From contig NC_014804.1 in assembly GCF_000151105.2 (NCBI RefSeq), positions 1,910,567-1,974,566 of the forward strand: a stretch of 64,000 nucleotides of DNA, read 5' to 3'. Position 1 is the stretch's first letter. The number at the start of each line of letters is the position of its first letter. Under the pieces are notes generated by a model, which was not told the origin of the DNA, made no database searches, and worked only from the letters and a program-made list of their open reading frames with translations. Positions 46,381 through 48,080 of this stretch are shown here, piece after piece. The stretch is from Thermococcus barophilus MP (GTDB lineage: Archaea > Methanobacteriota_B > Thermococci > Thermococcales > Thermococcaceae). A program made the translations under genes and the position numbers.

Positions 46381-47709
46381 ATGAGATGTCCAAGATGTGG
46401 GAGAGAGTATTCCTCTTTTATTCCTCCGCGGTGCTTATGTGGTGAACTGCTTGAGATAACATATGACTACTCCAATGTTGATCCTGGAAAATGGAAAAGC
46501 CGTGAGAAAGGAGTTTGGCGCTATAAAGAACTTTTACCTGAAGTTGACGAAATCGTGACTCTCAAGGAAGGGGGAACTCCCTTAGTGAAAGCTAAAATTG
46601 GTGAAGAGCTAAATCTTAATGTCTACATAAAAGATGAGACTCGAAATCCTACAGGCTCCTTTAGAGACAGACTTGTAACTGTTGGCGTCTCTTACGGTCT
46701 TCCCTATTCTGATAATGGTTTTATAGTTGCAAGCGATGGAAATGCTGCTGCTTCTTTAGCTGCTTATGCTGCGAGAGCTAACAGAGAGGCTTTTGTTGTA
46801 GTGCCGAGAAGGGTTGATAAGGGAAAGCTCATCCAGATGATAGCTTTTGGTGCAAAGATAATCCGCTATGGGGACAGTGTTGATGAGTGTGTAGATTACG
46901 CTAAAGAGCTTGCAAAGCTCAATGGCTTATACGATATAACCCCAGAGAACAACATAATTGGATTAGAGGGACAGAAAACTGTAGCTTTTGAGCTTTGGGA
47001 AGAGATAAATCCAACACATGTTGTTATTCCAACGGGAAGCGGGAGCAACCTCTACAGCATTTATAAGGGCTTTAAGGAGCTTTTGGAGATTGGGGCAATT
47101 GAGGAATTGCCAAAGCTAATAGCTGTTCAAACAGATAAGTGCAACCCAATAGCGAGTGAAATTTTGGGGATAAAACAAAAGAGAGAATTCACAAAAGCTT
47201 TGGGGCTTTATGTTAAAGACCCAGTAAATCGAGAAAGAGCAGTTAAAGCTGTAAAAGAAAGTGGTGGAACAGCTGTTGTAGTTAGGGAAGATGAACTTGA
47301 CTTGGGAGAAAAGCTATTGGCTAAAGAGGGTGTTTTTGTTGAATATGCATCAGCTGTTGTAGTTCCGGCTCTCATCAAGCTTAGCAATGAGGGATATTTT
47401 GAAAAAGACGATAGGATTGTTCTCATTGTCACCGGTTCCGGGCTCAAGAGCTATTATATAGATGAGCGGGAGAAATTCTCCATTGGTGGAACTAAGCTCA
47501 AAATTCTCAAACTGCTGAAAGAAAAGCCTATGTACGGCTATGAAATATGGGAGAACTTAGAAAAGCCAATGAAATATCAGGCTGTTTACCAGCACATTAA
47601 AGAGCTTGAGAGCTTAGGGCTCATAGAGGAAGCATGCAAGAAAGGGAGAAAGATTTACTACAAATTGACTGAAAAGGGACAGCGTTTGTTGGAGAACTTT
47701 GAAGAATAG
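46381..47709 (+). CDS. Threonine-synthase-like PLP-fold protein fused to a PadR-type winged helix, with Lys-to-Arg at the PLP site
   Basis: An N-terminal zinc ribbon-like CPRCGREYSSFIPPRCLC precedes a fold-type II PLP domain (residues about 50-360), with VASDGNAAASLAAYAARA and TGSGSNLYSIY as phosphate-binding loops. The invariant lysine of (S/G)FKDR is Arg here (NPTGSFRDRL), so a Schiff base cannot form in the usual way. Residues 370-442 form a winged helix of PadR type (KILKLLKEKPMYGYEIWENL, VYQHIKELESLGLIEE, YYKLTEKGQRLL). The fusion suggests a transcription regulator sensing an amino acid or cofactor, and not a threonine synthase. Start ATG 46381 follows GGTGAT. Possible operon with the DUF5379-like gene and rpiA. 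Confidence 0.85.
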   Translation: MRCPRCGREYSSFIPPRCLCGELLEITYDYSNVDPGKWKSREKGVWRYKELLPEVDEIVTLKEGGTPLVKAKIGEELNLNVYIKDETRNPTGSFRDRLVTVGVSYGLPYSDNGFIVASDGNAAASLAAYAARANREAFVVVPRRVDKGKLIQMIAFGAKIIRYGDSVDECVDYAKELAKLNGLYDITPENNIIGLEGQKTVAFELWEEINPTHVVIPTGSGSNLYSIYKGFKELLEIGAIEELPKLIAVQTDKCNPIASEILGIKQKREFTKALGLYVKDPVNRERAVKAVKESGGTAVVVREDELDLGEKLLAKEGVFVEYASAVVVPALIKLSNEGYFEKDDRIVLIVTGSGLKSYYIDEREKFSIGGTKLKILKLLKEKPMYGYEIWENLEKPMKYQAVYQHIKELESLGLIEEACKKGRKIYYKLTEKGQRLLENFEE

Positions 47710-47756
47710 AAAGAATTTTAAAGACCTTTAAATACTAAGCCTTTTAGGTGGGAAAC

Positions 47757-48080
47757 GTGAGAGTTGAGAGCAAAGTGTCACTTGTCATCTATGCAATGGG
47801 GGCTTTGGGTGGGATAATCAGCGGTGTACTTTCTGCTAACGCTAATCTTGGCTACATTGCTGGTCTGCTCTTGTATCTGCTAACTCCTAAGGTAATTAAA
47901 GCCACTATTAAGGATCTGCCTGGAGAGCTGCAAGACGACAATGTTCTCCTTAGAAAATCATTTTGGGGCTTTCTGTTGTTCTGGTTTTACTTCACGATAC
48001 TCGTTTACAACATAGTGCTCCCACAGCAGCCTGTGTTCTATTCAAATCAGAGCTTACTGTATAACGCAACAAAGGGATGA
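47757..48080 (+). CDS. Small membrane protein (DUF5379-like)
   Basis: The 107-residue protein has three to four hydrophobic segments (SLVIYAMGALGGIISGVL, YIAGLLLYLLT, FWGFLLFWFYFTILVYNIV). GTG 47757 follows AGGTGG at six bases. It ends three bases before the rpiA start and starts about 47 bases after the threonine-synthase-like gene, so all three may be one operon. The family is small and archaeal; role unknown. Confidence 0.7.
   Translation: MRVESKVSLVIYAMGALGGIISGVLSANANLGYIAGLLLYLLTPKVIKATIKDLPGELQDDNVLLRKSFWGFLLFWFYFTILVYNIVLPQQPVFYSNQSLLYNATKG

Follow-up and report, generated by a model that had tools for sequence, protein, structure and literature searches.

A threonine-synthase-like protein with a PadR winged helix, and arginine at the catalytic lysine position, as a predicted vitamin B6 regulator in Archaea

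The window, by which we mean the whole 64,000-nucleotide stretch of Thermococcus barophilus MP DNA that was analysed (genome G000), holds a gene whose product joins the domains listed in Table 1. In its cofactor loop the protein reads NPTGSFRDR, where threonine synthase (ThrC) has NPTGSFKDR. The coordinates, frame and AGA codon given by a sequence-only reading of this DNA are borne out, as are the two domains that it named, a threonine-synthase fold and a PadR winged helix: besides the PALP match there is a PadR match (PF03551) over residues 375-438, at 40 bits against a cut-off of 27. The AlphaFold model (mean pLDDT 84.4, pTM 0.80) has its best PDB matches in the ThrC of B. subtilis, M. tuberculosis and T. 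thermophilus. PF03551 is matched by every fusion member scanned, with 33-42 bits in four distant members. The protein is also a member of NF004170 (PRK05638), a curated NCBIfam equivalog that covers the whole lysine-less fusion architecture under the name "threonine synthase". For the members met in this analysis that functional name is probably wrong, and its correction would reach far, the name being applied to many archaeal proteins.

Table 1. Features of the fusion gene and of related loci (positions are those of the window unless another reference is named).
Feature	Position	Strand	Basis or remark
Fusion gene: threonine-synthase-like PLP-fold domain and PadR-type winged helix, predicted vitamin B6 regulator, 442 aa	46381..47709	+	NCBIfam NF004170, 800 bits (cut-off 421)
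N-terminal zinc-ribbon-like Cys motif (C3, C6, C18, C20)	46387..46440	+	invariant across aligned fusion proteins
PALP domain (fold-type II PLP fold), residues 59-352	46555..47436	+	Pfam match, 229.5 bits; AlphaFold model nearest to solved threonine synthases
AGA = Arg95, where ThrC has its catalytic, PLP-binding lysine (Lys61 in T. thermophilus)	46663..46665	+	codon and alignment
C-terminal winged helix (PadR family), residues ~371-441, conserved stretch KYQAVYQH	47491..47703	+	
orf110 between fusion gene and rpiA: 110 aa, Pfam-less, probably a membrane protein	47748-48080		kept in most Thermococcaceae
Palindrome in G000	L363:1367-1382 = ~1327939-1327954 of G000:C1		28 bases before the S-component start codon
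ECF S-component gene in G000, 200 aa	L363:1411-2013; start ~G000:C1:1327983		
Second-subfamily loci, e.g. L169, L319, L323-L327, L332, L334, L338, L342, L348, L354, L355			operator type CCTATATATAGG

The gene order psmB-aCPSF1-fusion gene-orf110-rpiA is conserved in the Thermococcaceae, and the sequence-only reading had offered the rpiA operon as a target. In Palaeococcus, as in other phyla, the fusion gene has a different location, which makes rpiA just a neighbour. We reject both rpiA and aCPSF1 as targets, since no copy of the operator described below with fewer than three mismatches is found near the fusion gene; matches within the window are near chance.

Is the arginine real, and how widespread is the loss of the lysine? 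Of the 65 Thermococcaceae orthologues whose motif is readable, 64 have Arg at the position, and it is written with six different codons (AGG, AGA, CGC, CGA, CGT, CGG), so that we reject a sequencing error as the origin of Arg95. The sole Lys (codon AAA) belongs to a Palaeococcus-like genome, G002, in which the Lys-type fusion gene (L028/L086) comes after pdaD-speD-speE-like polyamine genes; a polyamine link based on this context was rejected, being absent from other clades. Two genomes have the fusion gene broken into two frames (L067 in G078; L068/L182 in G049). Sister-family orthologues (n = 4, 44-46% identical) likewise have Arg and the winged helix, and a scan of named genomes shows that further archaeal lineages have this architecture, there with Arg, Ile or Val in place of the lysine. 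A search of 228 genomes of one distant phylum, probably the Asgard archaea (judged in part from a neighbouring gene for a Rab/Ras-like GTPase), adds about 80 further full-length fusions.

At the lysine position the 75 distant-lineage fusions have K (24), I (19), L (16) and R (12), with S, N, T and V once each, and all 91 aligned fusions have R (27), K (25), I (19) and L (16) besides S, N, T and V; by comparison, Lys is kept in 72/72 aligned ThrC-like proteins that have no winged helix. In the tree the 50 fusions included form a single clade (support 100/97) apart from true ThrC, a clade that by its sequences spans several archaeal phyla. Just two changes within it account for Lys versus non-Lys, one at a clade of Lys forms and one at the Palaeococcus-like sequence. 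Both are nested among Arg forms, and by parsimony their lysines are secondary. The residues K, R, I, L, V, S, N and T would make a natural series for the passage from a PLP enzyme to a sensor that holds its cofactor non-covalently.

We turn to the DNA that such a protein might bind. A palindrome, TCAAGTTwwAACTTGA, lies next to the TATA box of pdxS (PLP synthase) promoters and of ECF transporter S-component (ECF-S) promoters in fusion-bearing Thermococcaceae, in the interval that separates the box from the expected transcription start. It is present at the pdxS promoter in 18/18 genomes with the fusion versus 0/11 without it (p = 3e-8), and at the ECF-S promoter in 25/26 versus 0/4 (p = 2e-4), tests that are not fully independent because the fusion-less genomes all come from one genus. 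The single weak ECF-S site belongs to G049, a genome with a frame-split fusion gene, and its operator is degraded; G053, an incomplete genome that has the palindrome but yielded no fusion, is excluded from these counts. In a pattern search of 94 genomes, 7/7 exact sites among the matches listed stand before pdxS or ECF-S. For sites with one mismatch the corresponding figures, again among the matches listed, are 28/56 in fusion-bearing and 0/11 in fusion-less genomes, and the other half in the fusion-bearing genomes may be chance or further targets.

An ECF-S orthologue, one per genome, is found by profile search in 80/94 Thermococcaceae genomes, and pdxS in 72/94. Among nearly complete genomes ECF-S accompanies the fusion in 52/52, versus 13/23 where the fusion is missing (p = 1e-6), and within the genus that holds the losses the figures are 27/27 versus 13/23 (p = 1e-4). 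The association of the fusion with pdxS in the Thermococcaceae is suggestive and not significant (p = 0.16). No pdxS was found in the window genome, which is therefore predicted to require external vitamin B6, taken up by means of the ECF S component.

In the distant lineages the candidate targets mostly lie beside the fusion gene itself. Of 64 distant loci with wider context, 44 carry an ECF transporter S component of family PF07155 within two genes of the fusion, and 8 carry pdxS-pdxT there; the fusion is mostly divergent from them. A pdxS gene was found in 0/44 genomes with an S-component-linked fusion, versus 5/8 genomes in which the fusion adjoins GINS/MCM genes (Fisher p = 2e-5). Transporter and biosynthetic genes replace each other beside the regulator, which points to a shared product, PLP. 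In G121 the S-component gene immediately precedes pdxS, and tandem sites resembling AAGTTNNAACTT stand upstream. GINS/MCM genes adjoin 8 Arg-type distant loci, and Arg-type fusions beside the GINS and MCM replication genes are seen both in the sister family and in the distant phylum (L296-L300, L304, L305, L309, L074, L075). Such a link, confined to the sister family and one clade, was rejected as absent from other clades.

Palindromes also stand at these distant promoters. Within 728 kb around distant fusions there are five copies of CAAGTTNNAACTTG, which has the core of the Thermococcaceae palindrome, and each stands between pdxS and the fusion gene. With one mismatch allowed, 9/9 sites lie at pdxS or ECF-S promoters; the reversed-pattern control gives none exact and 1 with one mismatch. 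A second subfamily has another palindrome, CCTATATATAGG, with 14/14 sites at fusion or ECF-S promoters; the promoters that it overlaps belong to loci with I, L or V in place of the lysine. At the unlinked pdxS promoters of four genomes with GINS-linked fusions (G192, G193, G194, G198) no clear operator copy was found.

The next question is what the enzyme-like domain may hold. With 91 fusions aligned to 72 ThrC-like proteins (T. thermophilus ThrC numbering), the residues around PLP are kept in the fusions (N87 in 87/91, T317 in 90/91, G187 in 91/91, and Lys116 as well), those for the ring N1, the O3' and the phosphate loop among them. Thr88, Asn154, Ser155 and Arg160, which we take to be the contacts of the phosphate of the substrate O-phosphohomoserine, are found in 0, 0, 5 and 0 of the 91 fusions versus 58, 59, 60 and 65 of the 72 ThrC. 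The pocket would look like this in a cofactor-binding, non-catalytic domain. Of the sequence-only reading's statement that the phosphate-binding and substrate loops were intact, the first part holds for PLP and the second fails. Its broader idea, that an enzyme fold has become a sensing regulator, finds strong support in the lost lysine, the kept PLP pocket, the lost substrate pocket, the fused winged helix and the co-occurring operator.

That reading had named an amino acid or PLP as the ligand. An amino-acid sensor, with threonine, serine, homoserine or an adduct of PLP and an amino acid as its ligand and with amino-acid genes under its control, has in its favour the fold of threonine synthase, a pocket that remains polar and an external aldimine of PLP and amino acid that could form without the lysine. 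We nevertheless consider it improbable: the substrate-phosphate residues are lost, the predicted operators stand at pdxS and ECF-S, the neighbours are B6 genes, and the fusion occurs in many genomes without canonical thrC/thrB while missing from some that have them. This mismatch in distribution also removes threonine metabolism, the other target that had been suggested, and together with the placement of the operators leads us to reject the threonine operon. PLP is the one of the two named ligands that we would retain. The window genome has a separate, Lys-bearing ThrC in a lysC-thrB-thrC-asd cluster, and the other fusion-bearing genomes checked also carry one. Further ThrC-like paralogues besides the canonical ThrC occur in Thermococcaceae (for example NPTWSFKDR, 386 aa; L002, L085, L078).

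It is less probable still that the S component, and with it the regulator, serves riboflavin or another vitamin in place of B6. The predicted target belongs to PF07155 (homologues by Pfam, Thermococcaceae orthologues by profile), which Pfam names an ECF riboflavin S component, and riboflavin is among its NCBIfam matches, all of them weak. PF07155 is, however, also the family of PdxU and PdxU2/HmpT, known or proposed ECF S components for B6 (PMC9997740). The 8 loci with pdxS-pdxT in place of the S component, the lack of pdxS in the S-linked genomes, the adjoining S-component and pdxS genes of G121 and the palindrome shared by pdxS and ECF-S promoters in Thermococcaceae argue for B6 as well. Least credible of all is that the protein still works, or moonlights, as an enzyme, relying on Arg, on a different lysine or on an unusual reaction, and that its winged helix is an accessory; the annotation (NF004170) and the Lys of one clade (24/75 distant loci) and of the Palaeococcus-like genome speak for it, and the I, L, V, S, N and T tolerated at the lysine position, the O-phosphohomoserine contacts missing from nearly all fusions and the separate K-type ThrC speak against it.

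The fusion is, in our judgement, very probably a repressor that senses PLP, controls the synthesis and uptake of vitamin B6 and would need no Schiff-base lysine. Its threonine-synthase-fold domain would bind PLP, or a close B6 form, and thereby gauge the free cofactor; with the lysine gone, the PLP would be held without a Schiff base. The winged helix is predicted to bind the palindrome (predicted site TCAAGTTTTAACTTGA) at pdxS and at the PF07155 gene for putative B6 uptake, the latter being the predicted target in the window genome, which is without pdxS. When PLP is plentiful the protein would occupy the operator and transcription would be blocked; when it is scarce the protein would leave. 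The position of the palindrome, past the TATA box and ahead of the expected start, is one at which bound protein would block initiation, and it is most simply read as the site of a PLP-bound repressor.

If this is true, a regulator, its operator, two targets and a probable importer of B6 are named at once, and they can be tested together because the organisms are cultivable; B6 transporters are largely unidentified (PMC9997740). We found no archaeal B6 regulator and no threonine-synthase-PadR fusion of this kind in searches of an open-access library. With good probability, we have here a family of transcription factors that sense PLP, spread across the Archaea and derived from a fold-type II PLP enzyme without the Schiff-base lysine, the first archaeal B6 regulator described, and an operator core common to the Thermococci and a distant phylum, probably Asgard.

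Compared with known systems, the fusion shares with threonine synthase, a fold-type II PLP enzyme, the fold and the PLP pocket residues, and differs from it in the replaced catalytic lysine, the lost substrate-phosphate residues, the added winged helix and a clade of its own. With PadR-family regulators it has PF03551 in common, the winged helix being here the tail of an enzyme-fold sensor. In the ThiR and RbkR regulators of Archaea an enzyme-like domain is fused to a DNA-binding domain and the genes of one vitamin are regulated; the logic is the same, while the vitamins and the folds are others. The ThiR and RbkR regulons are mentioned in PMC10746257. PdxR, of the bacterial MocR-GabR group, is like the fusion in combining a winged helix with a PLP-enzyme fold, and the fusion is predicted to control PLP synthesis and uptake, often from beside its targets. 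MocR proteins, which are reported to be absent from Archaea (PMC5320631), have an N-terminal GntR winged helix and a fold-type I aminotransferase domain, whereas the fusion has fold type II, a C-terminal PadR winged helix and no Schiff-base lysine. Judged by its sequence, the fusion would work like bacterial PdxR, with control of the PLP genes as the prediction, yet is no MocR.
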